DNA from: Planctomycetota bacterium
GTDB taxonomy: Bacteria > Planctomycetota > UBA1135
Direction: 5' to 3'
DNA: 63,994 nucleotides
Assembly: GCA_003696625.1 (NCBI GenBank)
Contig: RFGR01000061.1
Location: forward strand, 1 to 63,994
The notes beneath the pieces are model-generated. The model worked only from the letters and a program-made list of their open reading frames with translations, did not search any database and was not told the origin of the DNA. The first letter of the stretch is position 1; every line of letters starts with the position of its first letter. Shown one piece after another: positions 2,607-62,169 of this stretch. Both the position numbers and the translations under genes were made by a program.

Positions 2607-2612
2607 AGTCTA
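2607..2612 (-). promoter_or_regulatory. TAGACT -10-like hexamer, leaderless spacing to the DnaQ-WYL gene
   Basis: TAGACT ends 8 bases before the ATG at 2598. Its first three bases are the TAG stop codon of the upstream transporter gene. Confidence 0.5.
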
Positions 2613-3290
2613 GCAGCAGGCGCCGGCCTCGGTGCGCTCGAGCGCGAAGGGGCGGAGCAGCCAGGTGCCGAGGTAGAAGAACGGCGTGTCGGCCAGCGCG
2701 ACCAGGGCCTTGAACAGCCACAGGTCGAGGACGGTGTCGACGATCCGCTCGCCGCTCCACACCCCGGCGAAGAGGACCAGGACGACCAGGCTGGAATCGA
2801 GGAACTGCGACACCAGGGTCGAGCCGTTGTTGCGCAGCCAGAGGTGCCGTCCGCCGGTCAACCGTTTCCAGAAGTGGAAGAGGCGGATGTCGGCGAACTG
2901 GGCGGCCAGGTAGGCGGTCATCGAGGCCGCCATCACCCGCCAAGCCGAGTGGAACACCCGCTCGTAGGTGGCGTCGTCGACGATCGACCCCTCGACGGCC
3001 GGGAAGCGGGAGCCGAGCCAGAGGACGCCGAGCACGAACAGCGAAACGACGAAGCCGACCTGGACCACCCGGTCGGCCCGCCGGCGACCGTAGATCTCGC
3101 TCAGCAGGTCGGTGACCAGGAAGGTCAGCGGGTAGGGCAGGGCACCGGCCGAGAGGACGAAGGTCTTGAAACCGAGATCGACGGTCAGGAACTTGTTGGC
3201 GACCAGGTTGCAGACGATCAGGGAGCCGAGGAACAGACCGGCGAGGAGGAGATAGACCGCCTCCGAGCGTTCGCGAGGGTCGCCGGTCAC
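2610..3290 (-). CDS. yhhQ: Queuosine precursor transporter (YhhQ/Vut_1, DUF165)
   Basis: A 226-residue membrane protein with about six hydrophobic segments. The family signatures are visible: LIVCNLVANKFLTVDLG near the N-terminus, PYPLTFLVTDLLSEIYGRRR in the second helix-loop, and LRNNGSTLVSQFLDSSLVV. YhhQ proteins import preQ0/preQ1, the 7-deazaguanine precursors of tRNA queuosine. The GTG start overlaps the upstream stop as GTGA, so translation is probably coupled to the secreted peptidase-like gene before it. No other queuosine genes are in the window. The stop codon TAG doubles as the first half of the next gene's -10-like hexamer. Confidence 0.9.
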   Translation of the reverse strand: MTGDPRERSEAVYLLLAGLFLGSLIVCNLVANKFLTVDLGFKTFVLSAGALPYPLTFLVTDLLSEIYGRRRADRVVQVGFVVSLFVLGVLWLGSRFPAVEGSIVDDATYERVFHSAWRVMAASMTAYLAAQFADIRLFHFWKRLTGGRHLWLRNNGSTLVSQFLDSSLVVLVLFAGVWSGERIVDTVLDLWLFKALVALADTPFFYLGTWLLRPFALERTEAGACC

Positions 3291-4477
3291 TGGGCCGGAT
3301 AGGTGGCCAGGACCCAGGACCGCCAAGCCTCCTCGGCCTGGGCCAGCGTCCAGCCGAACAGATCCTTGAAGGCGGCGCGTTGGGCCGCGTCCAGGTTGCG
3401 GCCGTCGGGCATGCCGCGGGCGTCGCGCCGGGTCTTCAGCCGGGTCAGCCAGGCCGCCATCTTCTGCGGGTGCTCCTCGGCCAAGAACTGGAACTTGGAC
3501 CAGGAGACGAGGTGGTCCGGGAAGTCGAGTTCGGCCAAGGATTTCTTGCGCAGGAACTGGGCGAAGGAGGCGGCGCGGTCCTTCTCGACCAGCTTGCGGA
3601 CCTGGACCGCCCAGTCCTTGGCGGCCTTGCCGACGTCGAAGCTGCCCTCGATGGTGCAAAAGGTGTTGAAGCGATCGTCGAAGGCCCGTTCCGCCCAGTG
3701 GCCGATGCCGGTGTAGATCCAGACCGGCATCTCGTAGGAGTAGTGCATGTAGCCGTTGAGCAGGTTGTGGGCGACGTTGTGGACGACGACCGCGGCCAGG
3801 TGCTTGTCGTGGTGGATGTCCTCGGTCTGGAGGTTGACCCCGAACCACATGCAATCGCGGTCGACGTTGTTCCAGCACTGCGGCTTGAGATAGCCCAGGC
3901 CCCAGGTGTCGACCATGAACTCCCGGTAGGCCGAGGCCTCGGCGAAGACCATGACCTCGTACTTTTCCTTCTCGCCCAGGTAGCGGCCGACGCCGCGCTG
4001 CTCGTTGCGGGCCGGATCGAGGAACTCCTCGTCGCTGGTGCCGACCAGCTCGCAGAAGCGGTCGTAGAGGGCCTCGAGGCGCTCGCCGAGGAGGTGGATC
4101 CGGTACCAGCGGTCGAGGGTCCCCGGTTTCTCCTTGACCAGCGGCCAGCGGTCGCGGAGGGCGGCCAGTTCGGCCCGGTAGGCCTTGACTTCATCCATCG
4201 GGATCTTCCAGGCCGGGAAGTCGCCGAGGATCCGGAAGTGCTCGGTCTCGAGCAGGGTCGGCCGCCAGAGCCCCTGTTCGGCGATCCGGGTGCTGTCGGT
4301 GCGGGCGAAGGGGAACGGGCCGTGGCTCATGCCGTTGGCCGCCAGCACCTCCGGATCGTGGTCACAGAAGGTGCAGCGGTCCTTGCGTCGCTTCGGGCGT
4401 TCGCCCTGGGCCGGCGCCTGGGCGGCCAGGGCGGCGACGAGGCCGAGGACGAGGAGAAGCAGCGCCGGCCGCTTCAC
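3287..4477 (-). CDS. Secreted peptidase-like protein with a degenerate HExxH motif
   Basis: From the GTG at 4477 the protein has a clean signal peptide (VKRPALLLLVLGLVAALAAQ) and about 370 mature residues. An ATG six codons upstream is possible, but the GTG gives the same 4-base GTGA overlap as the next gene. Near the N-terminus RCTFCDHDP carries a Cys pair. The central part VVVHNVAHNLLNGYMH looks like a gluzincin metallopeptidase helix in which the catalytic Glu of HExxH is Asn, followed by a YEMPVWIYTGIGHWAE stretch where the third ligand Glu would sit. I infer a peptidase fold without ordinary catalysis, perhaps a binding protein. I cannot name a characterised homologue. Confidence 0.7.
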   Translation of the reverse strand: MKRPALLLLVLGLVAALAAQAPAQGERPKRRKDRCTFCDHDPEVLAANGMSHGPFPFARTDSTRIAEQGLWRPTLLETEHFRILGDFPAWKIPMDEVKAYRAELAALRDRWPLVKEKPGTLDRWYRIHLLGERLEALYDRFCELVGTSDEEFLDPARNEQRGVGRYLGEKEKYEVMVFAEASAYREFMVDTWGLGYLKPQCWNNVDRDCMWFGVNLQTEDIHHDKHLAAVVVHNVAHNLLNGYMHYSYEMPVWIYTGIGHWAERAFDDRFNTFCTIEGSFDVGKAAKDWAVQVRKLVEKDRAASFAQFLRKKSLAELDFPDHLVSWSKFQFLAEEHPQKMAAWLTRLKTRRDARGMPDGRNLDAAQRAAFKDLFGWTLAQAEEAWRSWVLATYPAQ

Positions 4478-6011: not shown

Positions 6012-6019
6012 GGAATGCC

Positions 6020-6025
6020 ATTATC
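6020..6025 (-). promoter_or_regulatory. GATAAT -10-like hexamer for the parvulin operon
   Basis: GATAAT on the minus strand ends 8 bases before the GTG start at 6011, which would give a transcript starting at or near the start codon. The first base departs from the TANNNT pattern. Confidence 0.4.
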
Positions 6026-6043
6026 GATCCCGGGTGGCGTCCG

Positions 6044-6049
6044 TAGAAT
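6044..6049 (+). promoter_or_regulatory. TAGAAT -10-like hexamer for the second parvulin gene
   Basis: TAGAAT lies 27 bases before the ATG at 6077, implying a leader of about 20 bases with no clear Shine-Dalgarno sequence. It is one of two divergent promoter candidates in the same short gap. Confidence 0.4.
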
Positions 6050-6076
6050 GCTCCGTTCCGCCGGTTTCCGGAAACC

Positions 6077-7726: not shown

Positions 7727-7745
7727 CCCCACCCCGCCCCGGGCC

Positions 7746-10087: not shown

Positions 10088-10791
10088 CCGGTGGCGGTCC
10101 GGCCGGCCCGGGCGGCGAGCAGGGCCTCGGCCAGCTCGAGGTCGGCGGGGGTGGTGATCTTCCGGTTCGTGCTCGGGGCCTCGACCAGGACCGGTTGGTG
10201 GCCGGCAGCCTCGAGCAGGGAGGACTCGTCGGTCGGCAGGCCGCGGGCGGCGGGGTCCCAGGCCTCGAAGGCGGCCAAGAGCAGGTCGCGGCGGGCTCCC
10301 TGCGGGGTCTGGGCTGCCCAAATCCCCTCGCGGGAGAGGGTGCCTGAGGACCGTCCGTCCGGGGTCGAGCGCTTCAGGGTGTCGGCCACCGGCGCCGCGG
10401 CCAAGGCGGCGCCGTGCTCGCGGACCGCGGCGGCGACCGCTTCGAACAGCTCGGCTTCGACCAGGGCGCGGGCGGCGTCATGGACCAGGACGAACTCGGC
10501 GGTGGCCGCTGCGCAACCGGCGCGGCTGGATTCCCAGCGTTCGGCGCCGCCGGGGACGACCCGGTCGGCGCCGAAGGCCTCCGGCGGCCGGCCCCACCGC
10601 TCGGCGAAGGCCGCCGCGTCCCGCGGCGGCATGACCAGGACGACCTCGGAGGTGCCGGCCGCGGCGCGGGCCGCGCGCAGCGATCGCGCCAGCAGAGGTT
10701 CTCCGGCCAGTTCGAGCAGGGCCTTGTTGCCCCGGCCCAGGCGGCGCCCTCGTCCGGCGGCGAGGACGACGACGGCGGTGTCCGGCCTCAT
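10084..10791 (-). CDS. ispD: 2-C-methyl-D-erythritol 4-phosphate cytidylyltransferase
   Basis: The 235-residue protein transfers CMP to methylerythritol 4-phosphate. The nucleotide-binding loop VVLAAGRGRRLGRGNKAL is at the N-terminus, and FVLVHDAAR, the WAAQTPQGARRDLL motif and TDESSLLEAAG follow in the expected order. The C-terminal NRKITTPADLELAEALL is also typical. It leads the ispD-ispF pair and is divergent from ruvC, with 43 bases between the two start codons. Confidence 0.95.
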   Translation of the reverse strand: MRPDTAVVVLAAGRGRRLGRGNKALLELAGEPLLARSLRAARAAAGTSEVVLVMPPRDAAAFAERWGRPPEAFGADRVVPGGAERWESSRAGCAAATAEFVLVHDAARALVEAELFEAVAAAVREHGAALAAAPVADTLKRSTPDGRSSGTLSREGIWAAQTPQGARRDLLLAAFEAWDPAARGLPTDESSLLEAAGHQPVLVEAPSTNRKITTPADLELAEALLAARAGRTATG

Positions 10792-10797
10792 GGCAGG

Positions 10798-10803
10798 ATT
10801 CTA
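10798..10803 (-). promoter_or_regulatory. TAGAAT -10-like hexamer, leaderless spacing to ispD
   Basis: TAGAAT on the minus strand ends 6 bases before the ispD ATG. It is back to back with the ruvC hexamer at 10823-10828. Confidence 0.5.
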
Positions 10804-10822
10804 GGCCGGAGACGGTCCCTGC

Positions 10823-10828
10823 TAGCAT
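10823..10828 (+). promoter_or_regulatory. TAGCAT -10-like hexamer, leaderless spacing to ruvC
   Basis: TAGCAT ends 6 bases before the ruvC GTG. No Shine-Dalgarno sequence lies between them. Confidence 0.5.
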
Positions 10829-10834
10829 GGCCCC

Positions 10835-11377
10835 GTGCAGAACCGGCGGATCCTCGGCGTCGATCCCGGCACGCGGATCGCCGGTTGGGGGGTGGTGGTC
10901 GAGGAGGCGCCCGGTCGGCTTCGCCGACTCGCCTCGGGGGTCTGGCGGCTCGATCGGCGGCAACCGGCGGCGGTCCGCCTGGCCCGGTTGCAGGAACTCG
11001 CAGCCGCCGCCCTCCGCGAGTGGCGACCGGACCGGCTGGCGCTGGAAGCAGCCTTCTTCGGGCGCAACGCCCGCTCGGCGCTCCGGCTCGGCGAGGCGCG
11101 CGGCGTGATCCTGGCGGCGGCGGCCGCCGCCGGGGTCGAGGTGGTCGAACTTCCGCCGGCGCTGGTCAAGCGCCGGGTCGGCGGCGGAGGGGCGGTGAGC
11201 AAGGAGGGCCTGGCCGCACTGGTGGCGGCCCAGCTCGGTTTCGAACCGCGCTCCGGGCCGGCCGACGAGACCGACGCCCTGGCAGTGGCGCTTTGCGCCT
11301 TCCTTCAAGCTCCTGCGGAAACGAGAAAACCAGGACATAATGGCCGAGAGCTGCCGCCTGGGGCGGCGCTTCAGTGA
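10835..11377 (+). CDS. ruvC: Holliday junction endodeoxyribonuclease RuvC
   Basis: The 180-residue nuclease resolves Holliday junctions with RuvAB. The RNase H-like core shows ILGVDPGTRIAGWG (first catalytic Asp), LALEAAFFGRNARSALRLG (catalytic Glu) and GPADETDALAVALC (the last two Asp). The basic VKRRVGGGGAVSKEG loop is also in place. The start is a GTG. No ruvA or ruvB is beside it. The last 20 or so residues extend past the usual end. Confidence 0.92.
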   Translation: MQNRRILGVDPGTRIAGWGVVVEEAPGRLRRLASGVWRLDRRQPAAVRLARLQELAAAALREWRPDRLALEAAFFGRNARSALRLGEARGVILAAAAAAGVEVVELPPALVKRRVGGGGAVSKEGLAALVAAQLGFEPRSGPADETDALAVALCAFLQAPAETRKPGHNGRELPPGAALQ

Positions 11378-11378
11378 G

Positions 11379-12077: not shown

Positions 12078-12107
12078 CCCCGCGCCATTGCTTCCGTCTT
12101 CCCGAGC

Positions 12108-12458
12108 GTGAAGGATCGCAGCCTGGCCACGCGGGCGGCCGGTGCCGTCCTCCTGGCGGCCTCGATCCGCACTCTCTTCTCCGGGATCGTCGCCGAACCC
12201 GCCGACCTGGCCGATCCGGTCCGCGGGGCGGAGGCCGTCCTGCCCGACCTACAACACGACGGCTGGCTCCGTTTGAGCTGGCTGCCCGGCTTGGGGCCGG
12301 AGCGGGCCCGGCAGGTGGTGGCCGCGCGCGCCAGGCTGTCGGTCCGGCTCACCCCGGAGAGGCTCGCCCTGCTGCCGGGGGTGGGGGAGCGGACGGCCGC
12401 CGAGATCGCCGCCTGGTACCGACGCGGCGGCCGGGGGCCGCCGGCAAGGCCGGGCTAG
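12108..12458 (+). CDS. ComEA-like helix-hairpin-helix DNA-binding protein
   Basis: The 116-residue product has a hydrophobic N-terminal segment (RAAGAVLLAASIRTLFSGIV), which could be an anchor or signal peptide. Tandem helix-hairpin-helix elements follow: LSWLPGLGPERARQVVAAR and LALLPGVGERTAAEIAAWY, both with the GxGxxxA hairpin. This is the ComEA pattern of binding double-stranded DNA outside the inner membrane during uptake, or a DNA-repair accessory. No other competence genes are in the window. The GTG start is weakly supported. Its TAG stop begins the TAGAAT hexamer upstream of nadC. Confidence 0.75.
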   Translation: MKDRSLATRAAGAVLLAASIRTLFSGIVAEPADLADPVRGAEAVLPDLQHDGWLRLSWLPGLGPERARQVVAARARLSVRLTPERLALLPGVGERTAAEIAAWYRRGGRGPPARPG

Positions 12459-12461
12459 AAT
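12456..12461 (+). promoter_or_regulatory. TAGAAT hexamer fused to a stop codon, leaderless spacing to nadC
   Basis: The first three bases are the stop codon of the HhH gene. The hexamer ends 7 bases before the ATG at 12469. Confidence 0.55.
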
Positions 12462-12468
12462 GCCGCGG

Positions 12469-13326
12469 ATGGAACCGGCGGGGGAGGTGCTGGAGACCGT
12501 TCGCGCGGCCCTCGAGGAGGACCGTGCCGACGCCGATCGGACCACCCGGGCCGTCGTTCCGGACGACCGGAAGGCCCGCGGCCGGATCCTTGCCCGGGCC
12601 GAGGGGGTCTTGAGCGGGGTCGCCTACGCGACCGCCGCCTTCCGGCTCTGCGATCCCGCGGTCGAGCTGGAATGGCTAGCCGAGGACGGCGACCGAGTCC
12701 AGGCGGGGGAGGTCGTCCTCCGCTGCTCCGGCCTCGCGGCCGGGCTTCTGGCGGCCGAGCGGACCGCCCTGAACTTCCTTCAGCAGCTCTCCGGGGTGGC
12801 CACCGCCACCGCCCGGATGGTGGCCGCGGCCGGCCCGGGACTGGAGCTGCTCGACACCCGGAAGACGGTGCCGGGGCTGCGCGCGGCCCAGAAGCAGGCG
12901 GTGGTCCACGGCGGCGGCCGCAACCACCGCCGCGATCTCGAGGACCAGCTCCTGCTCAAGGAGAACCACTTCGCTCTCTCCGGTCTGTCTTACGCCGAGA
13001 CCGTCCGCCAAGCGGTGGCGGCGGCCGAGGGCCGGGTGGTGGGGGTCGAGGCGGAGACCGAGGAGCAGGCCATCGCCGCGCTCGAGAACGGAGCCTCCTA
13101 CGTCCTGCTCGACGACTTCCCCGACGACACCCTGGCCGAGGTGATCGCCCGCCTCCGGCGGAGCCATCCCGGCGCCGTGATCGAGGTGAGCGGCGGGGTC
13201 CGCCTGGAGCGGGTGGCGCACCTCCGCCACAGCGGCGCCGACCGGATTTCGGTCGGCTGGATCACCCACAGCGCGCCCGCTCTCGATCTCTCATTCGGCC
13301 TCGAACGGGCGGCAGGACCATCCTGA
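12469..13326 (+). CDS. nadC: Nicotinate-nucleotide pyrophosphorylase (quinolinate phosphoribosyltransferase)
   Basis: NadC makes nicotinate mononucleotide from quinolinate and PRPP in NAD synthesis. The 285-residue protein shows LAAERTALNFLQQLSGVAT, LLDTRKTVPGLRAAQKQAV, the VHGGGRNHRRDLEDQLLLK active-site Arg/His/Lys run, VLLDDF and IEVSGGV in the family order. I start it at the ATG at 12469 because the in-frame ATG at 12460 overlaps the -10-like hexamer; the choice changes three residues. No nadA or nadB is nearby. Confidence 0.95.
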   Translation: MEPAGEVLETVRAALEEDRADADRTTRAVVPDDRKARGRILARAEGVLSGVAYATAAFRLCDPAVELEWLAEDGDRVQAGEVVLRCSGLAAGLLAAERTALNFLQQLSGVATATARMVAAAGPGLELLDTRKTVPGLRAAQKQAVVHGGGRNHRRDLEDQLLLKENHFALSGLSYAETVRQAVAAAEGRVVGVEAETEEQAIAALENGASYVLLDDFPDDTLAEVIARLRRSHPGAVIEVSGGVRLERVAHLRHSGADRISVGWITHSAPALDLSFGLERAAGPS

Positions 13327-13327
13327 G

Positions 13328-14253: not shown

Positions 14254-14267
14254 CGCCGGCCTTCGCC

Positions 14268-15802: not shown

Positions 15803-15825
15803 GGGGGTGGCGGAAAACCGCCGAC

Positions 15826-27413: not shown

Positions 27414-28102
27414 GCTCGACCTGGGTGATCGGCGACATCCACGGCTGCGCCGAAGAGCTGGCCGAGCTGCTCGAGCGGCTCCAGCCCGGCGGGGAGGATC
27501 GGGTGATCGCGGTCGGCGACCTCTACCACCGGGGGCCCGACCCGCTCGGCGTGGCCGCCCTCCTCGCCGGCGTCGGGGCCGAGATCGTCCTCGGCAACCA
27601 CGAACACGTGCTCCTGCGCCGTCTCGCCCTGCTCGGCGGGGGCGCGCCCTGGAGCGGGATCCCGGCCGAGGACCTGGCCGGCGACGGCGGCACGCCGCTG
27701 GCCCCCGTCGACCCGGCCCGCTCGGCCGAGCTGCTCGAGCCGCTGCGCGGTCGGCCCTACTTCCTGCGCGGCCAGGGGCCGGAGGGTCCGTGGCTGGTCG
27801 TGCACGCCGGCGTCCTGCCCGGCCGCCGACCGGAGGAGACCCCGCCGCGGCAGCTCGTCCGGCTGCGCCGGCTCCAGGGACTGCGTGGGGAGCCGTTCTG
27901 GTTCGAGGTCTGGGAGGGTCCGGAGCTGGTCCTGTTCGGGCACACGAGCGGCCGGGTGCCGCGGCGCCGGGTGGCGGGCGGCCGGTTGGTCGCGCTCGGA
28001 CTGGACACCGGCTGCGTCTACGGCGGCGCCTTGACCGCCTTTCGGATCGAGGACGGCGAGCTGGAGGCGGTGCCGGCCCGACGCCGCTACGCCGGCTCAT
28101 GA
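27410..28102 (+). CDS. Calcineurin-like metallophosphatase (PPP family)
   Basis: The 230-residue enzyme has the two-metal PPP motifs in order: WVIGDIHGCAEEL, AVGDLYHRGPDPLG, IVLGNHEHVLL, WLVVHAGVLPG and LFGHTSGRVP. Such bacterial phosphatases act on phosphoproteins (PrpE/PrpA type) or on Ap4A (ApaH type); the short insert between GNHE and the first distal His does not decide between them. Overlapping stops and starts with both neighbours place it in a four-base-coupled chain. Confidence 0.9.
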   Translation: MSSTWVIGDIHGCAEELAELLERLQPGGEDRVIAVGDLYHRGPDPLGVAALLAGVGAEIVLGNHEHVLLRRLALLGGGAPWSGIPAEDLAGDGGTPLAPVDPARSAELLEPLRGRPYFLRGQGPEGPWLVVHAGVLPGRRPEETPPRQLVRLRRLQGLRGEPFWFEVWEGPELVLFGHTSGRVPRRRVAGGRLVALGLDTGCVYGGALTAFRIEDGELEAVPARRRYAGS

Positions 28103-29469
28103 ACCGACGGCTCCTCCATCCGCTGCTGGTCCTGGTCGCGGCCGCCCTGATCTGGCTGTTCCTGCCGGAGGCGGCGGAGAAGCGCCGGCCGGCGCCCTCG
28201 GTGGAGGAGATCGCGGTCGCCGAGGCGCCGGCGGCGGCCGCCGCGAGCGGCGATCGGCCGGACTCAGGCCGCGCGGCGGTCGCGGCCCCCGACCGGCCGG
28301 CGGCCGCCGGCGAGGGGGACGAGGGCCACCTGCTCGTCCTCCGCTTCCGGGCCGAGGACCCCGACGCCCTGGCCGGGGTGCGCTGCCGGCTGTTGCTCGA
28401 GCAGAGCTTCGATTTCGCCGGCGAGCCCCCGGTCGCCGACCGGGAGGGGATCCTGGCCCCGGACGGTCTCGTCCGCTTCCTGCTCCCGCCCGGTCGGGTG
28501 GTCCCCGTCCTGCTGGCCGGAGGCGAGGAACTCGACCTGCCCGGGTTTTGGATGCCCGACGCCGCGCACGAGGAGGAGTACGACCTCGGCCGGCGCCTGG
28601 ACCTGCGCGTGCGGGCGCTGGCGGAGGGGCGGCCGGTCCGCCCCTGCCGCTTCGAACTCTGGGGCGGGGTCGGGATCGACGAGCCGCAGCCGCTTCTCCG
28701 CGGCGCCGCCGGACCGGACGGATTCTGGCGGCCGCGGCTGGCCTTCGGCGTCCTCGACCACCTGCGGATTCGACCGGAGGTCCCCTGGTTGCGCCAGAGC
28801 TTCGGTCCCTTCCCCCTGGCCGGCGCCCCGGCCGAGTGGTCGGTCGAGCTGCCGCTGGCCCGGTTCTCGCTCGAGCCGCCTGTCGACGCGGCCGGGAGAC
28901 CGGCGGTGGAGCCGGGGCTGGAGCTGCACCGGCTGCCCCTGGCCGGCGCCCCGGCCGACGGCTCCGAGTTCGAGGCGATCCCGCTGGCCGAGGCCCTGGC
29001 CGCCGGACCGATCTGGGTGGCCACCGGCCCCTGCCGGCTGGCGCTGGGCGGTCCCGGCGCCGGGCTCTACCGGCTCGAGGGCGAGACGGTCCTGGCGGCC
29101 GGCGCCGCCGCCGATCTGCGGCTCCGCCGGCGGCCGAGCGGACGCCTGGTGGTCGAAATCCTCGGCCCGGGGCGGCCGGTGGAGCCGGCCGGGATCGAGA
29201 TCCGGCCCGAGGAAGGCGGCCTCGGGTCGATCGAGGCGCCGCCGGCCGAGACGACCGGAGCCGCGTTCCGCCGCGCCTACCGGGTTCCCGCCGGCCGGGT
29301 CCGGGTGGAGCTGCGCGGGCCGCTGCTGATCCTCGGCAGTCGCCCGCCGCGCTACCTCGGGAGCGAGGAGGACCGCGCCGCCCTGGAGCTTCGGGTGGCC
29401 CCCGGCGGCGAGGCCGTGGCCCGTTTCCGGGCCGACGCGGACGGCTTGAGGGCGGCGGCGGGCGGCTAG
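28099..29469 (+). CDS. Membrane-anchored hypothetical protein with beta-sandwich-like domains
   Basis: I do not recognise a family. One N-terminal span (LLHPLLVLVAAALIWLFLP) anchors about 430 extracytoplasmic residues. An Ala/Pro-rich linker is followed by beta-rich segments with conserved-looking turns (LDLRVRALAEGRPVRPCRFE, GRLVVEILGPGRPVEPAGIE), reminiscent of carboxypeptidase-regulatory-like repeats common in planctomycete surface proteins. No catalytic motif is seen. It overlaps the phosphatase by ATGA, and its TAG stop forms the first half of the hexamer before glyS. Confidence 0.6.
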   Translation: MNRRLLHPLLVLVAAALIWLFLPEAAEKRRPAPSVEEIAVAEAPAAAAASGDRPDSGRAAVAAPDRPAAAGEGDEGHLLVLRFRAEDPDALAGVRCRLLLEQSFDFAGEPPVADREGILAPDGLVRFLLPPGRVVPVLLAGGEELDLPGFWMPDAAHEEEYDLGRRLDLRVRALAEGRPVRPCRFELWGGVGIDEPQPLLRGAAGPDGFWRPRLAFGVLDHLRIRPEVPWLRQSFGPFPLAGAPAEWSVELPLARFSLEPPVDAAGRPAVEPGLELHRLPLAGAPADGSEFEAIPLAEALAAGPIWVATGPCRLALGGPGAGLYRLEGETVLAAGAAADLRLRRRPSGRLVVEILGPGRPVEPAGIEIRPEEGGLGSIEAPPAETTGAAFRRAYRVPAGRVRVELRGPLLILGSRPPRYLGSEEDRAALELRVAPGGEAVARFRADADGLRAAAGG

Positions 29470-29472
29470 AAT
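29467..29472 (+). promoter_or_regulatory. TAGAAT hexamer fused to a stop codon, leaderless spacing to glyS
   Basis: The TAG is the stop of the preceding gene; the hexamer ends 9 bases before the ATG at 29482. A CTTGAG or TTGAGG lies 15-16 bases upstream as a possible -35. Confidence 0.55.
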
Positions 29473-29481: not shown

Positions 29482-30945
29482 ATGTCGAAGTCCACGACCG
29501 CCGTGATGGACAAGATCGTCTCCCTGTGCAAGCGCCGGGGATTCGTGTTTCCCGCCTCCGAGATCTACGGCGGCCAGGGCTCGACCTACGACTGGGGGCC
29601 GCTCGGCGTCGAGCTGAAGCGGCGGGTGAAGGAGGCCTGGTGGCGGAGCATGGTCTACGACCGCCAGGACGTGGTCGGGCTGGACTCGGCCATCATCCAG
29701 AGCCCGGAGGTCTGGCGCGCCTCCGGCCACGTCGACGGCTTCACCGACCCGCTGATCGACAACAAGACCTCCAAGCAGCGCTACCGGGCCGATCACCTGG
29801 TCGAGGCCAGGATCGAGAAGTACCGACGGCAGGGCAAGGAGGAGCGGGCGGCGGCCCTGCAGGAGAAGCTGACGGCGGCGCTGGGGGACAACCAGGCCCT
29901 GCGCCGGCTGATCCTCGAGGAGGGCATCAAGTGCCCGGTCTCCGGCACCGACGACTGGACGGAGGTGCGGCAGTTCAACCTCATGTTCCAGACCTGGGTC
30001 GGGCCGGTCCAGGACAGCGCCGCGGTCGCTTGGCTGCGCCCGGAGACCGCCCAGGGCATCTTCATCAACTTCAACAACGTCGTCACCGCCACCCGCAAGA
30101 AGCTGCCCTTCGGCATCGCCCAGATCGGCAAGAGCTTCCGCAACGAGATCACTCCGGGCAACTTCGTGTTTCGGACCCGCGAGTTCGAACAGATGGAGAT
30201 GGAGTACTTCTGCCGCCCGGAGGAGGCCGAGCGCTGGTTCGACTACTGGCAGCAGGAGCGGTTCCGCTGGTACCTCGACCTCGGCGTCGATCCGGAGAAG
30301 CTGCGGCTGCGCCAGCACACCTCGGACGAACTCGCCCACTACGCCGCCGGCTGCGGGGACGTCGAGTACCTCTTCCCGTTCGGCTGGTCGGAGCTGGAGG
30401 GCATCGCCAACCGGACCGACTACGACCTCAAGCGGCACACGGAGGCCTCCGGGGTCCAGTTGAGCTGGTTCGACCAGGAGCGGAATGAGCACATCGTGCC
30501 CTACGTGATCGAGCCGGCCGCCGGCTGCGACCGGACCGCGATGACCTTCCTGGTCGATGCCTATGACGAGGAGGGCGAGGGCAAGGACCGGCGGGTCGTC
30601 CTCCACCTTCATCCGCGCATCGCCCCGGTCACGGTGGCCGTCTTCCCGCTGGTCAAGAAGGAGGGGATGCCGGAGAAGGCGGCCGAGATCGAGCAGGAGC
30701 TGCGCCGCCGCTTCACCACCGCGATCGAGCTGAACCAGTCGATCGGTCGCCGCTATCGGCGCCAGGACGAGATCGGCACCCCGTTCTGCGTCACCGTCGA
30801 CGGCGACACCCTGGCCGACGACACGGTCACCCTGCGCGAGCGGGACAGCATGAGTCAGGAGCGGGTGCCGGTGTCCGAGCTGGCCGGGGTCATCGATCAG
30901 CGGATCGCCGACTGGCGGCGCCCGGAGAAGGCGTCCGTCGCCTGA
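29482..30945 (+). CDS. glyS: Glycyl-tRNA synthetase, single-chain class II type
   Basis: The 487-residue homodimeric form charges tRNA-Gly, which is encoded at 19806. The N-terminus has KRRGFVFPASEIYGG and STYDWGPLGVELK; motif 2 is IGKSFRNEITPGNFVFRTRE with the EFEQMEMEYF segment; WSELEGIANRTDYDLKRH and the C-terminal anticodon-binding domain (HPRIAPVTVAVFPLVKK) follow. This is the archaeal/eukaryal-like alpha2 form rather than the alpha2beta2 GlyQ/GlyS pair. One base separates its stop from the Enzyme I start. Confidence 0.96.
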   Translation: MSKSTTAVMDKIVSLCKRRGFVFPASEIYGGQGSTYDWGPLGVELKRRVKEAWWRSMVYDRQDVVGLDSAIIQSPEVWRASGHVDGFTDPLIDNKTSKQRYRADHLVEARIEKYRRQGKEERAAALQEKLTAALGDNQALRRLILEEGIKCPVSGTDDWTEVRQFNLMFQTWVGPVQDSAAVAWLRPETAQGIFINFNNVVTATRKKLPFGIAQIGKSFRNEITPGNFVFRTREFEQMEMEYFCRPEEAERWFDYWQQERFRWYLDLGVDPEKLRLRQHTSDELAHYAAGCGDVEYLFPFGWSELEGIANRTDYDLKRHTEASGVQLSWFDQERNEHIVPYVIEPAAGCDRTAMTFLVDAYDEEGEGKDRRVVLHLHPRIAPVTVAVFPLVKKEGMPEKAAEIEQELRRRFTTAIELNQSIGRRYRRQDEIGTPFCVTVDGDTLADDTVTLRERDSMSQERVPVSELAGVIDQRIADWRRPEKASVA

Positions 30946-42068: not shown

Positions 42069-42836
42069 ATGAGACGACCCCTGTTCCCGCTTCTGGCCGC
42101 CGCCCTGCTCGCCGTGCCCGCCCTCGCTCAGGATCCGTCCCAACCGGTCCCGACCGTCGAGGAGCCCCGCAGCGAGGTCGAGTTCCCGCGCTGGATGGAC
42201 TTCCCGGGCGGCAAGCAGCCGCTCCATCTCCTCGCCGTCGGGCTCCGCACCAAGACCATCTTCGCGGTCAAGGTCTACGCCTTCGGTCTCTACCTCGACG
42301 CCCGGGCGGCGGCGGCGGCGTTGCGCGACTACCGCGGCCTCCGGCCCAAGGACCGGCGCAAGAGCCGCGCCTTCTACCGCGCCCTCCTGAACGGCGATTT
42401 CAGCAAGGGCCTGCGCTGGGTGATGACCCGCGACGTCGACGGCGAAGACATCGCCGAGGCCTTCGCCGAATCCCTCGAGCCCCGACTGGAGAAACTGGCG
42501 CGGTCCGCCAAGCCGGAGGTGGTCGCGGCCGACCGGGCCGCCCTGGCCCGCTTCAAGACCTTCTTCAGCGACGAACTCGAGGAGGGGACCGAGCTGGTCT
42601 TCGCCTGGCATCCCGGCGGCCGGCTGGTGACCAGGATCGGCGGCAAGGTGATGGGCGAGGTGAAGTCCCACAACCTGGCCCTGGCCCTGTTCGACGTCTA
42701 CCTCGGCTCCGATCCGATCTCCGAGGACGCCAAGGAGGCTTTCGCCGACGCCCTGCCCGGGTTCCTGGACCTGGCCGCCGGGCTGCCGCCGCTTCCGGCC
42801 GCGGAGGAAGCGGCGGACGCCGGCGCCGACGGTTAG
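42069..42836 (+). CDS. Secreted chalcone-isomerase-like domain protein, copy 2
   Basis: The 255-residue paralogue of the preceding gene has a signal peptide (MRRPLFPLLAAALLAVPALA). It aligns with copy 1 throughout: VGLRTKTIFAVKVYAFGLYL, FYRALLNGDFSKGLRWVMTR, DVDGEDIAEAFAESLEPRLE, EEGTELVFAWHPGGRLVTRI and LGSDPISEDAKEAFADALPG. The two differ mainly at the N-terminal linker and C-terminal tail. They look like an old tandem duplication with separate regulation. Its TAG stop is embedded in the TAGAAT before nqrM. Confidence 0.85.
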   Translation: MRRPLFPLLAAALLAVPALAQDPSQPVPTVEEPRSEVEFPRWMDFPGGKQPLHLLAVGLRTKTIFAVKVYAFGLYLDARAAAAALRDYRGLRPKDRRKSRAFYRALLNGDFSKGLRWVMTRDVDGEDIAEAFAESLEPRLEKLARSAKPEVVAADRAALARFKTFFSDELEEGTELVFAWHPGGRLVTRIGGKVMGEVKSHNLALALFDVYLGSDPISEDAKEAFADALPGFLDLAAGLPPLPAAEEAADAGADG

Positions 42837-42839
42837 AAT
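42834..42839 (+). promoter_or_regulatory. TAGAAT hexamer fused to a stop codon, leaderless spacing to nqrM
   Basis: The TAG is the stop of the preceding gene; the hexamer ends 9 bases before the GTG at 42849. Confidence 0.55.
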
Positions 42840-42848: not shown

Positions 42849-43139
42849 GTGATCGTCTTCCTCCTCAGCTTCCTGGCCTTCGTCCTCGCGGTCGCCCTGA
42901 TGGCGGTCGGGGTGGTCGTGGCCGGCAAGCGGCTGCACGGTTCTTGCGGCGGCGTCGTCGGGCCGGACGGCGAGGAGATCGGTGACTGCCTCTGCGCCCG
43001 CAAGCAGGTCGGGATCTGCGCCTCCGCGGAGGGCAACGAGCTGGTGCAGCTGGCCGAGCTGGGCTACCCCCAGCGCAAGGACCACTTCGGCGTCCTCGCC
43101 CGCCGGCAGCCGCCCGGCCCGCCGCCGCTCTCGGTTTGA
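42849..43139 (+). CDS. nqrM: Na+-NQR maturation factor NqrM (DUF539)
   Basis: The 96-residue protein has one N-terminal membrane span (VIVFLLSFLAFVLAVALMAV) and then HGSCGGVVGPDGEEIGDCLC with a further Cys in VGICAS. The GSCGG motif plus the Cys set after a single span is the NqrM pattern. NqrM delivers iron to the Fe site coordinated by NqrD and NqrE. It faces the nqr operon tail to tail, with only 6 bases between its stop and that of apbE. The GTG start has no Shine-Dalgarno but has the leaderless-type hexamer. Confidence 0.85.
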   Translation: MIVFLLSFLAFVLAVALMAVGVVVAGKRLHGSCGGVVGPDGEEIGDCLCARKQVGICASAEGNELVQLAELGYPQRKDHFGVLARRQPPGPPPLSV

Positions 43140-45431: not shown

Positions 45432-46043
45432 CTAGAGCTTGATGCCGCCGAAGAGCATGAACCCCATCGCCATCAGGCCGGCGGTGAGGAAGGTGATGCC
45501 GAGGCCGCGCAGCCCGTGCGGCACGTTCGAGTACTTCATCTTCTCTCGTACCGCGGCCAGGGCGAGGATCGCCAGCCACCAACCGAGGCCGGAGCCGAGG
45601 CCGAAGACCACGCTCTGGGCGAAGTCGTACTCGCGCTGGACCATGAACAGCGAGCCGCCGAGGATGGCGCAGTTGACCGCGATCAAGGGCAGGAACACGC
45701 CCAGGGTGGTGTAGAGCTTGGGCGCGAACCGGTCGATCGTCATCTCGACGATCTGGACCATGGCGGCGATGGTGGCGATGAAAGCGATGAAGCTCAGGAA
45801 GCTCAGGTCGACGCCGGCCAGGCTCGGGCTGATCCAGCTCAGGGCGCCTTCCTTGAGCAGCCAGGTGTAGATCAGGTTGTTGAGCGGCACCGTCACCGTC
45901 TGGACGAAGGTCACCGCCATGCCCAGACCCATCGCCGTCTCGACCTTCTTCGACACGGCCAGGAACGAGCACATGCCCAGGAAGAAGGCCAGGGCCATGT
46001 TCTCGACGAAGACCGACTTGACGAACAGGTTGAGGAGTTCCAT
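45432..46043 (-). CDS. nqrE: Na+-NQR subunit E
   Basis: The 203-residue, six-helix membrane subunit pairs with NqrD, and together they hold the intramembrane iron site that NqrM loads. The Cys-bearing helices read [20 protein letters not shown] and [18 protein letters not shown], with the typical inverted topology relative to NqrD. A GGAGGG lies between its stop and nqrF. Confidence 0.97.
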
Positions 46044-51742: not shown

Positions 51743-52561
51743 TCAGGCCGGGACTCCGGCCGGGCCGACCCCCAGGGCCATCCGCTCGGCGCCGTAGAAG
51801 GCGAGCGGGTTGTCCCAGACCAACCGCTGGATCACGGCCGGGTCGGCGCCGCGGGCCTCGAGCAAGGCGGCCGTCTTCGGCACGTTCAGCGGGTCCGACC
51901 GCCCCCAGTCGGCGCTCGAGTTCAGAGTGATCCGCTCGACCCCGCAGTCGAAGAAGATGTTCACGAAGCGCTCCGGCGTCAGCTTGGTCTCGGGATAGAC
52001 CGTGTGGCCGGCCCAGTAGCCGGCGTCGAGGATCATCCGGGTGGTCTCCTCGGTCGAGTGGTCGATGACCACCCGGTTCGGGTCCACGTCCAGGTCGGCG
52101 AGGACCTCGATCGTCCGCTTCGTGCCGCGGGCCTTGTCGCGGTGCGGGGTGTGGACCAGGATCGGCAAGTCGAACCCGCGGGCCATTTCGACCTGGGCGA
52201 TGAAAGCCTTCTCCTCGGCCGGGGTGATCGCGTCGTAGCCCAGCTCGCCGACCGCGACCACGCCGTCGCGCCCGAGGAACTCCGGCAGCATCTCCAGCAC
52301 CTCGGCCGCCAGCCGCTCGTCGTTGGCCTCCTTTGGGTTGAGGCCGATCGTACAGCGGTGCTCGATGCCGAAGCCGGCCGCGCGTTCCCGCTCCCATTCC
52401 AGGATCATCAGGAAGTAGTCGCGGAAGGTGCCGGCGCTGGTCCGGGGCTGGCCGAGCCAGAAGGAGGGTTCCACCACCGCCCGGACCCCGGCCAGGTACA
52501 TGGCCTGGTAGTCGTCGGTGGTCCGGGAGACGCAGTGGATGTGCGGGTCGATGTAGCGCAT
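51743..52561 (-). CDS. TatD-family metal-dependent hydrolase, EboB-like
   Basis: The 272-residue amidohydrolase-fold protein begins MRYIDPHIHCVSRTTDDYQA, with the HxH metal motif. VVEPSFWLGQPRTSAGTFRD, CTIGLNPKEANDE, GVVAVGELGYDAITPAEE, LPILVHTPHRDKARGT and RVVIDHSTEETT follow. This particular set matches the EboB subgroup of TatD proteins as I recall it; ebo genes export polar metabolites and occur as a cluster, but no other ebo gene is here. Its likely -10 (TAGAAT) begins with the stop codon of the Lon-type gene. Confidence 0.8.
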   Translation of the reverse strand: MRYIDPHIHCVSRTTDDYQAMYLAGVRAVVEPSFWLGQPRTSAGTFRDYFLMILEWERERAAGFGIEHRCTIGLNPKEANDERLAAEVLEMLPEFLGRDGVVAVGELGYDAITPAEEKAFIAQVEMARGFDLPILVHTPHRDKARGTKRTIEVLADLDVDPNRVVIDHSTEETTRMILDAGYWAGHTVYPETKLTPERFVNIFFDCGVERITLNSSADWGRSDPLNVPKTAALLEARGADPAVIQRLVWDNPLAFYGAERMALGVGPAGVPA

Positions 52562-52584
52562 GATCGAGTGGTGGTGGACCTGGC

Positions 52585-52590
52585 ATTCTA
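52585..52590 (-). promoter_or_regulatory. TAGAAT hexamer fused to a stop codon, upstream of the TatD-like gene
   Basis: On the minus strand the TAG is the stop of the Lon-type gene. The hexamer ends 23 bases before the ATG at 52561, so the leader would be about 16 bases. Confidence 0.45.
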
Positions 52591-55056
52591 GCCCTGCCCG
52601 GACTTGCGGCCGCCCTTGTCGTCCTTGCCGTCCCGAACCTTGTCGTAGCGGGCCAAGGCGGCCTCGACCCGGCCCATGACCGACTCCTGCGGCCAGCTGC
52701 CGTCCCGCCGCCGCCGGCCGGCCGGCAGGCCGGTCAGCAGGGCGATCCCCTGGTCGACCGTGTCGGCGGCCCAGAGGTGGAAGCGGCCGGCCCGCACCTC
52801 GCGCAGGATCGCCGGGTCGAGCATCAGATCCTCGACGTTGCTGGAAGGCAGGATGACGCCCTGGCTGCCGGTCAGGCCGCGGCGGGCGCAGAGTTCGAAG
52901 AAGCCGGCCACCTTCTCGTTGACGCCGCCGACGGCCAGGATCTCGCCCTGCATGTTGACGGCGCCGGTCACGGCCAGGTCCTGCCGCACGGGCAGGCCGG
53001 CGATCGCGGAGAGCAGGCAGTAGACCTCGGTCGAGCTGGCCGAGTCGCCGTCGATCGGGCCGTAGCTCTGGTCGAAGCTGAGGGCGGCCTTGATCGGCAG
53101 CGTGCGGTTCTGGCCGAAGCGGGCGCGCAGGAAGGATTCGAGCAGGAGCACCCCCTTGGTGTGGATCGGGCCGCTCAGCTCGACCTCGCGCTCGATGTTC
53201 AGGGTGCTGTCGTCGCCGACCGCCACCGAGGCCGAGACCCGGGCGACCCGGCCGAAGGAGAGCGGGCCGATCGAAACCACGGTCAAGGCGTTGACCGAGC
53301 CGATCCGGGTGCCGCTGGTCTGAATCTCGTAGACGCCGTCGAGGACCGCGCGCAGGTTCCACTCCGGCTCGGCCGCGTGCTGAAGGATGAAGGCCCGCCG
53401 CGCCTCCTCGACCGCCCGCCGGTCGATCCGCCGCCGGCCGGCGCGCTGGGCGTGGTAGGAGGCCTCCCGGGCGTAGTCGGCCAGGACCGGCAGCCGGGCC
53501 GACAGCCGGTTGCGGCGGCCGGCGTCCTCGACCGCCCGTTCGACCAGGCTCTGCAGACCGCTGGCGGCGAAGGGCAGCAGACCCTCGCGCCGACCGAGGT
53601 CGCGCAGGACCCGGACCAGGCGGCCGACGTTGGCCTTGGTCAGCGGCAGGTTGTCGTCGAACTCGGCCTTGGTCTTGAAGATCTCGGGGAAGTCGTGGTC
53701 GCTCTCGTGGAGCAGCTCGTAGAGCGCGTTGTCCCCGACCAGGATCACCTTGAGGTCGATCGGCACCGGTTCCGGCCGGACGCCGGTGACGCCGAGCGGG
53801 GACATCCCCTCGATCGTGTGGATCTGGAGCTGGTGGATCTGGAGGGTCCGCTTCAGGGAGCGCCAGACCTCGGCCTCCTGGAAGACGTCGCGGGCGTTCA
53901 GGACCAGCAGGCCGCCGTCGGCGGCCAGCAACGAGCCGGGGCGGACCGCGAGGTGGAAGTGGCCGGGGCCGGCGCTGAGCTGGCGCCGTTCGACCGTGCC
54001 GAACAGATTCGAGTAGTTCGGGTGGAGTTCGGTCACGATCGGACAGCGCCCCTCCTCGGCGCTGCGGACCACGTTCACCTCGAAGACCTCCAGCCCGAGC
54101 TTGTGGTCGCCGTCGCCCTCTTCCTGGTCGCTCTCTTCTCCGCCGCCCTCCGGGCCGCGGAAGAGGTGCAGGTTGGCGAGGGCGAAGCCGGCCGCGTCGC
54201 CGAGCCAGGCGCCGAGCGCCTCGTCGGCCTCGAGTTCCTCGGCGGTGGCGATGGTCAGGGCCTGGACCACCTCCCGGACTCGGTTCTCGTCCAAGGTCTG
54301 GACCTCGCGCAACAGCCGCAGGCCGATCTGGCGCGCCTGGAGCCTCGCCTTCCGGAGCTGGCTGACCAGGCCCTCGCGGGCCAGGAGCAGGCGGCGCAGG
54401 GCGGCGCCTCGGGGCCGAAGCTTCTCTTCGACCTCACCGAGCGCGTCCGGGGCGACCGCCTCCTCGCCGATCCGCAGCCAAATGTCCGGCCGCGGGCCGT
54501 CCTCGGCCTCGACCTGGACCAGGGCCAGACCGGCGGCGCGGGCCCGCCGGGCCAGCCGGCGGAAGAGCTGCTCCTCGGCGCTGGCGTAGCGGCGCAGGAG
54601 GCGGTCGCGGCGGGCGAGGTGCTCCTCGCTCGACAGCAGGCGCGGGATCTCGCGCCGCATCGCCCGCCGCCAGTTCCGCATCGCCTCGGCCAAGCGGACC
54701 CCCTTTCCGGCCGGCAGCGCCAAGTGACGGGGCCGGATCGGGTCGAGAAAGTTGTGGACGAAGACGTGGTCCTTGAGGAGCGGGCAGCTCAGTTGGACCT
54801 GCTCCAGGACCGCCCGCACCGTTTGGAAGCGCTCCGGTCCGCCGATGCCGGTGACGAAGACGTTGTAACCCGGCGCCTGGACCGCGAGGCCCATCCGGAG
54901 CGCCTCGATCGGCCGCTCCTGCCCGATCAGCCGGGAGACCGGATCTTGGCCGGTCGGGCGCCGGCGCGGCGCCGGGATCCAGCCGGCGGGGCAGGTCCAG
55001 CGGAGTTGGGAGGGGCGAAGCGGGCGCGGACGAAGGGCGCGGCGGTCGGCGGCCAT
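52588..55056 (-). CDS. Lon-type (AAA_32/LonB-like) protease with a degenerate Walker A
   Basis: The 822-residue protein has an N-terminal ATPase-like region, a large helical insertion (about 110-320) typical of AAA_32 proteins, and a C-terminal Lon protease domain. The catalytic dyad is present: Ser672 in DGDSASSTEV and Lys715 in GGVNEKVAGFFELC. The Walker A segment reads FVTGIGGPERFQTV instead of GxxGxGKT, so ordinary ATP binding is doubtful. LLAADGGLLVLNARDVFQEA occupies the Walker B region. I start it at the ATG at 55056, 8 bases after TACCAT; the open frame runs on upstream only because of GC bias. Confidence 0.88.
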   Translation of the reverse strand: MAADRRALRPRPLRPSQLRWTCPAGWIPAPRRRPTGQDPVSRLIGQERPIEALRMGLAVQAPGYNVFVTGIGGPERFQTVRAVLEQVQLSCPLLKDHVFVHNFLDPIRPRHLALPAGKGVRLAEAMRNWRRAMRREIPRLLSSEEHLARRDRLLRRYASAEEQLFRRLARRARAAGLALVQVEAEDGPRPDIWLRIGEEAVAPDALGEVEEKLRPRGAALRRLLLAREGLVSQLRKARLQARQIGLRLLREVQTLDENRVREVVQALTIATAEELEADEALGAWLGDAAGFALANLHLFRGPEGGGEESDQEEGDGDHKLGLEVFEVNVVRSAEEGRCPIVTELHPNYSNLFGTVERRQLSAGPGHFHLAVRPGSLLAADGGLLVLNARDVFQEAEVWRSLKRTLQIHQLQIHTIEGMSPLGVTGVRPEPVPIDLKVILVGDNALYELLHESDHDFPEIFKTKAEFDDNLPLTKANVGRLVRVLRDLGRREGLLPFAASGLQSLVERAVEDAGRRNRLSARLPVLADYAREASYHAQRAGRRRIDRRAVEEARRAFILQHAAEPEWNLRAVLDGVYEIQTSGTRIGSVNALTVVSIGPLSFGRVARVSASVAVGDDSTLNIEREVELSGPIHTKGVLLLESFLRARFGQNRTLPIKAALSFDQSYGPIDGDSASSTEVYCLLSAIAGLPVRQDLAVTGAVNMQGEILAVGGVNEKVAGFFELCARRGLTGSQGVILPSSNVEDLMLDPAILREVRAGRFHLWAADTVDQGIALLTGLPAGRRRRDGSWPQESVMGRVEAALARYDKVRDGKDDKGGRKSGQG

Positions 55057-55064
55057 GCCCCGGC

Positions 55065-55070
55065 ATGGTA
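55065..55070 (-). promoter_or_regulatory. TACCAT -10-like hexamer, leaderless spacing to the Lon-type gene
   Basis: On the minus strand the hexamer ends 8 bases before the ATG at 55056. Confidence 0.45.
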
Positions 55071-55088
55071 GGTCCGCCGACCGCCTGC

Positions 55089-57239: not shown

Positions 57240-57359
57240 CGGCGACGGCGAATGTAGCAGGGCCGGGCGGCATTCCTCCTTCCGCCCTTGAGCCGGCGGC
57301 CGGCGGTCCTAGAAGATGCCTCCTCCGGCCGCCGCCCGCGGCCGACCCTGGATTCCGAC

Positions 57360-57935: not shown

Positions 57936-57962
57936 GGCGCCGCCCGCCCGGCCCCTCCGGTC

Positions 57963-61341: not shown

Positions 61342-61348
61342 GCGGAGC

Positions 61349-61354
61349 TAAATT
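61349..61354 (+). promoter_or_regulatory. TAAATT -10-like hexamer, leaderless spacing to the WaaE-like gene
   Basis: The hexamer ends 8 bases before the ATG at 61363. The same AT-rich island (read as AATTTA) lies 7 bases before the divergent kinase GTG, so it may serve both directions. Confidence 0.5.
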
Positions 61355-61362
61355 CTGCCGGC

Positions 61363-62166
61363 ATGGGCGGGGCAGACCAAATCGAGGGCGGGCGCCGGCC
61401 GCCGCTCAGCGTGTTCGTCATCGCCCAGGACGAGGAGGCGCACATCGCCGACTGCCTGGCCAGCGCCTCCTTCGCCGCCGAACTTCTGGTTCTGGACGGC
61501 GGCTCCCGCGACCGCACCCCGGAGCTGGCGGCGGCGGCCGGGGCGCGGGTGGAACGGAGGCCGTTCGACGGCATGAACAGCCAGAAGAACGCCGCCCTGG
61601 CCCTCTGCCGCCAGCCGTGGGTGCTGAATCTCGACGCCGACGAGCGCGTCTCGCCCGAGCTGCGCCGGGAGATCGAGGCACTGTTCGCCGCCGGCGAGCC
61701 GGCCTGCGCCGGCTACACGATGCCGCGGCGGGCCTGGCACCTCGGCCGCTGGATCCGCGGCGGCGGCTGGTACCCGGACCGCAAGCTGCGCCTGTTCCGG
61801 CGCGACGCCGGCCGCTTCGCCGGCTGCGATCCCCACGACAAGGTCGTGGTCGACGGTCCGGTCGGGCGGTTGCACGGCGACCTGCTCCACTACGCCTACC
61901 GGGACCTCGCCCATCACGAAGCGAAGATGGAAACCTACACCACCGCCGCCGCCCGCAGCGCGTTCGCCGCCGGCCGGCGGGCGCCGCTGCTGCGGATGGT
62001 TCTGTCGCCGCCGCTCCGGTTCCTCAAGTCCTACTTCTTGCGGGCCGGGTTCCGGGACGGCCGGGCCGGCCTGATCCTGGCCTGGATGGCCGCCCGCTAC
62101 GAGTGGCACCGCTGGCGGAAGCTGCGCCGACTGCGCCGCGGCGGTCAGCCCTCCGCCGACTGCTAG
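61363..62166 (+). CDS. Family 2 glycosyltransferase, WaaE/KdtX-like
   Basis: The 267-residue enzyme has the GT-A pattern of LPS core glucosyltransferases: PPLSVFVIAQDEEAHIADCL, ELLVLDGGSRDRTPELAAAA, MNSQKNAALALCRQPWVLNL, the LDADERVSPELRREI DXD region, IRGGGWYPDRKLRLFRRDAG and LHGDLLHYAYRDLAHH. WaaE-type enzymes add beta-1,4-glucose to the inner core. It is divergent from the kinase and GT4 genes and probably acts with them. Its TAG stop starts the next hexamer. Confidence 0.92.
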   Translation: MGGADQIEGGRRPPLSVFVIAQDEEAHIADCLASASFAAELLVLDGGSRDRTPELAAAAGARVERRPFDGMNSQKNAALALCRQPWVLNLDADERVSPELRREIEALFAAGEPACAGYTMPRRAWHLGRWIRGGGWYPDRKLRLFRRDAGRFAGCDPHDKVVVDGPVGRLHGDLLHYAYRDLAHHEAKMETYTTAAARSAFAAGRRAPLLRMVLSPPLRFLKSYFLRAGFRDGRAGLILAWMAARYEWHRWRKLRRLRRGGQPSADC

Positions 62167-62169
62167 ACT
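62164..62169 (+). promoter_or_regulatory. TAGACT hexamer fused to a stop codon, leaderless spacing to the sulfatase gene
   Basis: The TAG is the stop of the WaaE-like gene; the hexamer ends 6 bases before the ATG at 62176. Confidence 0.55.

Follow-up and report, generated by a model that had tools for sequence, protein, structure and literature searches.

Promoters that adjoin a start codon and the leaderless genes they serve are already known. Leaderless "TA-led" genes, in which a TANNNT −10 box lies about 12 bp before the start codon, have been described in many bacterial groups (Zheng et al., 2011; PMC3160421). In Deinococcus-Thermus, −10 elements adjoining open reading frames (ORFs) give rise to leaderless mRNAs, as tested with reporter constructs, RNA-seq and RpoD binding in vitro or otherwise assayed (Zhong et al., 2025; PMC12340547). 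In Mycobacterium tuberculosis, the −10 box reads TANNNT, no −35 consensus is found and 26% of the genes with a primary transcription start site are leaderless (Cortes et al., 2013; PMC3898074). Single mutations create new TANNNT boxes in mycobacteria (PMC6728331), 33% of mRNAs are leaderless in Corynebacterium (PMC3890552), and a nucleotide bias that may stem from leaderless mRNA or from ribosomal protein S1 is reported for phyla including the Planctomycetes (PMC5397173). Stop codons that overlap the Shine-Dalgarno (SD) sequence of the next gene are known to shift stop usage at certain gaps, with TGA and TAG at 5–8 bp (Palleja et al., 2009; PMC2784483). Here we analyze a 63,994-nt contig of a Planctomycetota bacterium (RFGR01000061.1, referred to as the window), where six same-strand gene junctions carry the hexamer TAGAAT or TAGACT. 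In each of them the TAG stop of the upstream gene very probably forms the first three bases of a sigma-70-type −10 box, from which a leaderless mRNA would start on the next start codon or no more than a few bases away from it, with a short leader at one of the six. The likely leaderless nature of the downstream genes is the main point absent from a preliminary description of this DNA.

The hexamer is TAGAAT at four of the six junctions and TAGACT at two, and the positions and strands given in the preliminary description were confirmed, with TAG being the called stop of the upstream gene in every case (Table 1). That the next start follows after 6–9 bases in five of the six was likewise borne out: the spacers are 8, 7, 9, 9 and 6 nt at sites 2607, 12456, 29467, 42834 and 62164, taking nadC to start at ATG 12469, the exception being the TatD-like gene with 23 nt (site 52590). 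Six of the eight same-strand TAG-stopped junctions with a called neighbor in the window take this form, while the other two, at 45432 and 46047, carry TAGGGA or TAGGGC and belong to the stretch described as an nqr operon, in line with the claim that all such junctions outside nqr share it. A TAG stop at the left edge of the window (75) has no called neighbor and was excluded from this count. Among the six convergent TAG stops of the window, none is followed by the bases that complete TAGAAT or TAGACT. Three other sites of the TAGAMT class do not coincide with a stop, at 10803 (−), 6044 (+) and 41493 (−), the last being unassigned. The bare tally of TAGAMT in the window is mildly unusual (9 against 4.6 expected, with 5 of 100 shuffles reaching 9); unlike the tally, the placement of the hexamers is far from chance.

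The source draft genome comprises 3.04 Mb in 186 contigs, the window lying on contig 111. The larger sample, to which the following genome-scale counts refer, consists of 1,331,598 bases in 42 contigs with 1166 called genes, window included, and thus covers 44% of the genome. Genes were called with a codon-model-based caller which is blind to upstream motifs and penalizes overlaps. The preliminary description had proposed to count TAG stops followed by A[AC]T by distance to the next start against convergent junctions, and this count favors its claim: the trinucleotide follows TAG in 18/41 cases at same-strand gaps of 9–14 nt, 5/20 at 15–30, 4/38 at 31–100 and 2/20 above 100, as opposed to 0/91 at convergent stops. 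At gaps of 0–8 the only case among 19 is nadC, where the caller's start lies inside the box, and none occurs at the four overlaps. With the window excluded, A[AC]T still follows 18 of 58 TAG stops at gaps of 5–30 and none of 85 convergent ones (Fisher p = 1.4e-8). The wider class TAGNNT accounts for 28/41 TAG stops at gaps of 9–14 vs 3/91 convergent ones (Fisher p = 1.5e-15), and it is the T at the sixth box position that stands out, with a frequency of 0.68 at gaps of 9–14 vs 0.03 at convergent stops and 0.02 at the flanking positions. TGA stops are followed by A[AC]T in 0/36 cases at the same gaps and in 5/236 convergent cases. The share of TAG among all stops at gaps of 9–14 is 41/81; it falls to 13/53 once TAGNNT is removed, comparable to the convergent share of 91/336. 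Of the 270 same-strand overlaps, 264 end in TGA.

The same hexamer class also occurs where no stop is involved. In the source genome, the pattern TAGAATN{3,12}ATG has 75 matches and the reversed pattern none. Upstream of 340 divergent starts, TANNNT is found five times in total at spacers of 0–5 nt, followed by 46 times at a spacer of 6, 14 at 7, 21 at 8 and 19 at 9; upstream of 786 same-strand starts it is absent at spacers of 0–5 and occurs 39 times at 6. In both classes the counts tail off by a spacer of about 12. Defining a box as TANNNT at a spacer of 6–11 nt, 226 of the 1126 starts are boxed (118/340 divergent and 108/786 same-strand). In the usual sigma-70 geometry, 6 nt after the −10 box place the +1 nucleotide at the first base of the start codon. 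With 6–9 nt in between, transcription is hence predicted to begin at the start codon, pointing to likely leaderless genes, and the sharp lower edge at 6 is expected if a shorter spacer would place the transcript start within the start codon. Furthermore, SD motifs are nearly absent from boxed genes (2/226, one each among the 108 same-strand and 118 divergent), as compared to 53/412 unboxed same-strand genes at gaps of 0 or more, 92/266 overlapping and 17/222 divergent ones. Divergent boxes, which were selected on T1, A2 and T6, show G at position 3 with a frequency of 0.59, A at position 4 with 0.47 and A at position 5 with 0.53, close to TATAAT save for position 3. The TANNNT hexamer is therefore best regarded as the likely sigma-70-type −10 box of likely leaderless genes, which would extend leaderless expression to an uncultured lineage.

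In the divergent region at 10789–10850 of the window, two starts lie 43 bp apart and both are boxed at a spacer of 6 nt, with TAGAAT before ATG 10791 (−) and TAGCAT before GTG 10835 (+); the pair likely represents two leaderless promoters back to back. Another TAGAAT (6044–6049, +) lies 27 nt upstream of a divergent start at 6077, where a short leader is predicted as at the TatD-like site. At nadC, an in-frame ATG (12460) falls inside the box (TAGAATG) and was chosen by the gene caller; under the leaderless reading the start would shift to 12469, which automatic annotation may overlook.

Table 1. Stop/box hexamers, flanking genes and a divergent box in the window. Spacers (nt) separate the hexamer from the start codon.
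Feature	Positions	Strand	Description
TAGACT	2607..2612	-	Ends queuosine precursor transporter gene; predicted −10 for DnaQ-type exonuclease gene (ATG 2598, spacer 8)
Queuosine precursor transporter gene	2610..3290	-	Upstream, TAG-stopped (TIGR00697, Vut_1)
DEDD/DnaQ-type exonuclease gene	1753..2598	-	Downstream (RNase_T); WYL domain match weaker
TAGAAT	12456..12461	+	Ends helix-hairpin-helix protein gene; predicted −10 for nadC (ATG 12469, spacer 7)
Small helix-hairpin-helix protein gene	12108..12458	+	Upstream of nadC
nadC	12469..13326	+	Downstream; quinolinate phosphoribosyltransferase (TIGR00078)
TAGAAT	29467..29472	+	Ends gene without Pfam family; predicted −10 for glyS (ATG 29482, spacer 9)
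Gene upstream of glyS	28099..29469	+	No Pfam family
glyS	29482..30945	+	Downstream; glycine--tRNA ligase (NF003211, TIGR00389)
TAGAAT	42834..42839	+	Ends chalcone-isomerase-like gene; predicted −10 for small gene (GTG 42849, spacer 9)
Chalcone-isomerase-like protein gene	42069..42836	+	Upstream
Small gene	42849..43139	+	Downstream; 96 aa, unmatched in Pfam and NCBIfam
TAGAAT	52585..52590	-	Ends LonB-like protease gene; predicted −10 for TatD-like hydrolase gene (ATG 52561, spacer 23)
LonB-like AAA protease gene	52588..55056	-	Upstream
TatD-like hydrolase gene	51743..52561	-	Downstream
TAGACT	62164..62169	+	Ends family 2 glycosyltransferase gene; predicted −10 for sulfatase-family gene (ATG 62176, spacer 6)
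Family 2 glycosyltransferase gene	61363..62166	+	Upstream
Sulfatase-family gene	62176..63993	+	Downstream (Pfam Sulfatase); reaches window end
TAGAAT	10798..10803	-	Predicted −10 without stop role; divergent start ATG 10791, spacer 6

Comparison with relatives reveals which of the two functions is the more constant. All 24 family loci that hold the start of glyS carry the box (19 TAGAAT, 2 TAAAAT, 2 TACAAT and 1 TAGACT; L155, L156 and L158, where the gene start is absent, and two weak matches were left out), and it is called as a stop in the source genome only. In L130 a 165-codon open frame, which is not called as a gene but may or may not be one, ends at the box, while in L136, L148 and L153 the nearest called gene upstream lies on the opposite strand; the 60 nt upstream of glyS in the record of Planctomycetota NAT19 (L050) are identical to L136. 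At nadC, 22/24 loci retain both the upstream helix-hairpin-helix gene and the box, with the stop on the box in nine, upstream of it in eight and past it in five. The LonB-like gene precedes the TatD-like gene in 22/25 loci and stops on the box in nine of these (two TAAACT); in the remaining loci it stops one codon before the box in three (TGA followed by a box beginning TAC, TAG or TAA) and further upstream of it in five, and five have no box within 40 nt. In two loci the LonB-like frame overlaps the TatD-like start, again with no box within 40 nt. For these comparisons, L185 and L235 (gene start absent) as well as L186 and further weak matches were left out. On a tree of 25 genomes built from three proteins, in which 7/22 inner branches are open, the fused state changed at least six times at nadC (9/21 fused) and at least six times at the TatD-like gene (9/20). 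At the glyS, nadC and TatD-like junctions, it is thus the predicted box that stays in place and the stop that shifts.

The exonuclease junction differs in its distribution. TAGACT is also fused in the same-genus genome G199 (L188), it stands behind a different upstream gene in G209 (L199), and G212 (L200) perhaps has TAGGGT with the stop, its start being uncertain; most of the 24 loci show no such box. Here box and fusion co-occur in few genomes, giving no order of origin. Two further observations concern the conserved loci. The LonB-like/TatD-like pair (51743–55056) is conserved in 22/25 family loci, with the stop mostly no more than 60 nt from the start and at 80–482 nt in three loci. In four loci the upstream stop lies exactly one codon before the box, namely L228 (TGA TAGAAT), L230 (TGA TAAACT) and L212 (TGA TACAAT) at the TatD-like gene and L179 (TAG TAGAAT) at nadC; a box reading TAG or TAA in this position would be a second in-frame stop.

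Boxes begin with TAG at 70/118 divergent and 65/108 same-strand starts, and with TAG or TAA at 77/118 vs 77/108 (p = 0.39). Since the box stands at divergent starts without any stop and persists in relatives with the stop elsewhere, it is not shaped by a role as stop. The idea of a compact stop-plus-promoter element put forward in the preliminary description is therefore upheld in part: the hexamer likely acts as a −10 box at a fixed distance from the start and fusion lies far above chance, but selection of the box for its stop function finds no support in the divergent boxes or the relatives. The stop falls exactly on the box in 28/65 TAG, 2/12 TAA and 0/31 TAC or TAT boxes on the same strand; these 30 fused boxes do not include the window's nadC and TatD-like sites, where the called start or the spacer falls outside the range of 6–11. 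The 77 TAG and TAA boxes divide into 30 that are fused, 7 that are read past and 40 with the upstream stop further up, and of the 31 TAC/TAT boxes, which cannot fuse, one is read past.

These numbers bear most directly on a pure reading-frame lottery, in which −10 boxes beginning with TAG would stop one frame in three by accident, without any preference for fusion. The equal use of G at the third position of divergent and same-strand boxes (as seen from the TAG and TAA counts above) and the constant box with its wandering stop in relatives are what such a lottery would yield. However, 30 of the 37 boxes that are reached are fused against an expected one-third (p = 3.3e-9, leaving aside the 40 boxes with an earlier stop and given a caller that penalizes overlaps and may miss read-past cases). 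Frames anchored by homology agree, with nine fused and five past the box at nadC and nine fused and none past a box at the TatD-like gene, together 18 vs 5 in species that are not independent. We thus consider the lottery unlikely as a full account. Since frames rarely continue past the box into the next gene, an upstream gene that extends as far as the box usually ends on it. This could mean that selection acts against read-past frames or, equally in keeping with the counts, that existing TAG stops serve as seeds for new boxes. Because fusion exceeds the lottery, selection may be what keeps stops on the box. In its strongest form, the fused TAG/−10 would be a selected two-in-one switch, where one TA step ends translation of the upstream gene and positions RNA polymerase for the leaderless mRNA of the next, such that ribosomes never cross the promoter or the next start, restart on read-through mRNA could take place at the AUG 6–9 nt on, and gene ends would be pinned genome-wide, setting C-termini and stop usage. 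This remains a tentative and rather doubtful proposal.

Explanations that place the hexamer in translation fare worse. The base following a stop codon can influence termination, and as the hexamer begins with a stop codon, TAG followed by A[AC]T might be a favored termination or read-through context unrelated to promoters. Yet A[AC]T is found at none of the 91 convergent TAG stops, the excess of T is confined to one position, and the same hexamer class appears at the same spacing upstream of divergent starts, where no stop exists, leaving this explanation hardly credible. Translational coupling would treat the hexamer as a coincidence and the short stop-start gap as a means for ribosomes to terminate and reinitiate on one polycistronic mRNA. 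It could draw on gaps of 9–14 nt, which might permit reinitiation, and on the 270 same-strand overlaps, which make operon-type arrangements common. The junctions are not of the ATGA/TGATG overlap type, however, with gaps of 9–14 at the 30 fused boxes and 26 at the TatD-like gene. SD motifs, common at unboxed overlapping genes (92/266), are found near 1/108 boxed same-strand genes, so that the stop does not lie within an SD, and the box also stands at divergent starts. Coupling is accordingly very improbable. The reading of the stop as part of a −10 box has its sequence basis in the fixed spacing, the near absence of SD motifs, the divergent boxes, the persistence in relatives and the excess of stops on the box.

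Outside the source genome, the pattern TAGAATN{5,9}ATG has 33–107 matches in each of 24 other family genomes vs 0–34 for the reversed pattern, and each genome exceeds its own control; by glycyl-tRNA synthetase (GlyRS), the closest named genomes are two Planctomycetota metagenome-assembled genomes (84% identity), which makes a planctomycete source likely. More distant families vary, and some have nearly none (G054, 1 vs 1). The distant phylum members G017, G026 and G051 show 475–663 matches, 2.5 to 3.6 times the reversed control, and may employ adjacent boxes more heavily. The fused excess recurs in one GC-rich relative, G210, whose genes were called using the codon model of the window genome: A[AC]T follows TAG in 4/16 cases at gaps of 5–30 vs 0/49 at convergent stops, and NNT in 5/16 vs 1/49.

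Several results weigh against the reading of the hexamers as −10 boxes of leaderless genes that routinely double as stops. The leaderless start is predicted from spacing, and the 23-nt spacer at the TatD-like site predicts a short leader instead. No clear −35 signal accompanies the boxes, as TTG at 14–24 nt before the box is found in 5/118 divergent, 2/30 fused and 4/78 other same-strand cases, compared to 2, 1 and 4 in a control stretch; an extended −10 TG occurs at 7/118, 2/30 and 7/78 boxes of the same classes. The home-made caller agrees with RefSeq in 35 stops but only 27 starts of 36 Deinococcus genes. Fusion is also not general: there is no fused excess in G170 (58% GC; A[AC]T 0/11, NNT 4/11 vs 8/41 convergent), which is nonetheless boxed at 37/94 divergent starts, or in G204 (58% GC; A[AC]T 0/5, NNT 1/5 vs 5/21 convergent), and the plasmids of Deinococcus deserti (600 kb) show no TAG stops at 30 close junctions and two TAA fusions only. 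On the basis of four genomes and one plasmid pair, fusion seems to require that a genome be compact and rich in GC and that its leaderless boxes have G as their third base.

A simple chain of events could account for this pattern. RNA polymerase would start at these boxes, and 70S ribosomes would initiate on the 5′-terminal AUG or GUG. The lineage seems to prefer G at the third position of the −10 box, so that each TAGNNT box also reads TAG, and an upstream gene may end where its frame meets this TAG. Conversely, a TAG stop at the right distance could become a box by gaining just a T three bases on. In DNA of 73% GC, where TA steps would be scarce, stop and box would tend to share one. If it is true that leaderless boxes routinely double as stops, promoters shape the ends of upstream proteins and the choice of stop codons, and GC-rich genomes would owe some of their TAG stops to promoter signals and not to a translational choice. 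For annotation, TAGNNT 6–9 nt before a start likely flags a new transcript within an apparent operon.

Searches of open-licence papers turned up no stop codon that serves as a −10 box on a comparable scale. The boxes described here share hexamer class and distance to the start with the TA-led genes, but here the upstream stop is the box itself, and the text of that study contains neither "stop codon" nor "Planctomycetes" (PMC3160421). As in Deinococcus-Thermus, the box stands directly before the ORF, "stop codon" being absent from the main text of that report (PMC12340547). As with the leaderless promoters of M. tuberculosis, no clear −35 element is seen at the present predicted ones; the main text of that study does not use "stop codon" and does not treat fusion (PMC3898074). 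The SD overlap offers a parallel, as there, too, an upstream stop is at the same time part of a signal for the gene that follows, yet that signal is a ribosome binding site, whereas here it is a predicted promoter box, with TAG at 9–14 bp and the SD nearly absent (PMC2784483). To the known adjacent −10 boxes and leaderless genes, the junctions of this lineage add the union of stop codon and likely −10 box at this scale.

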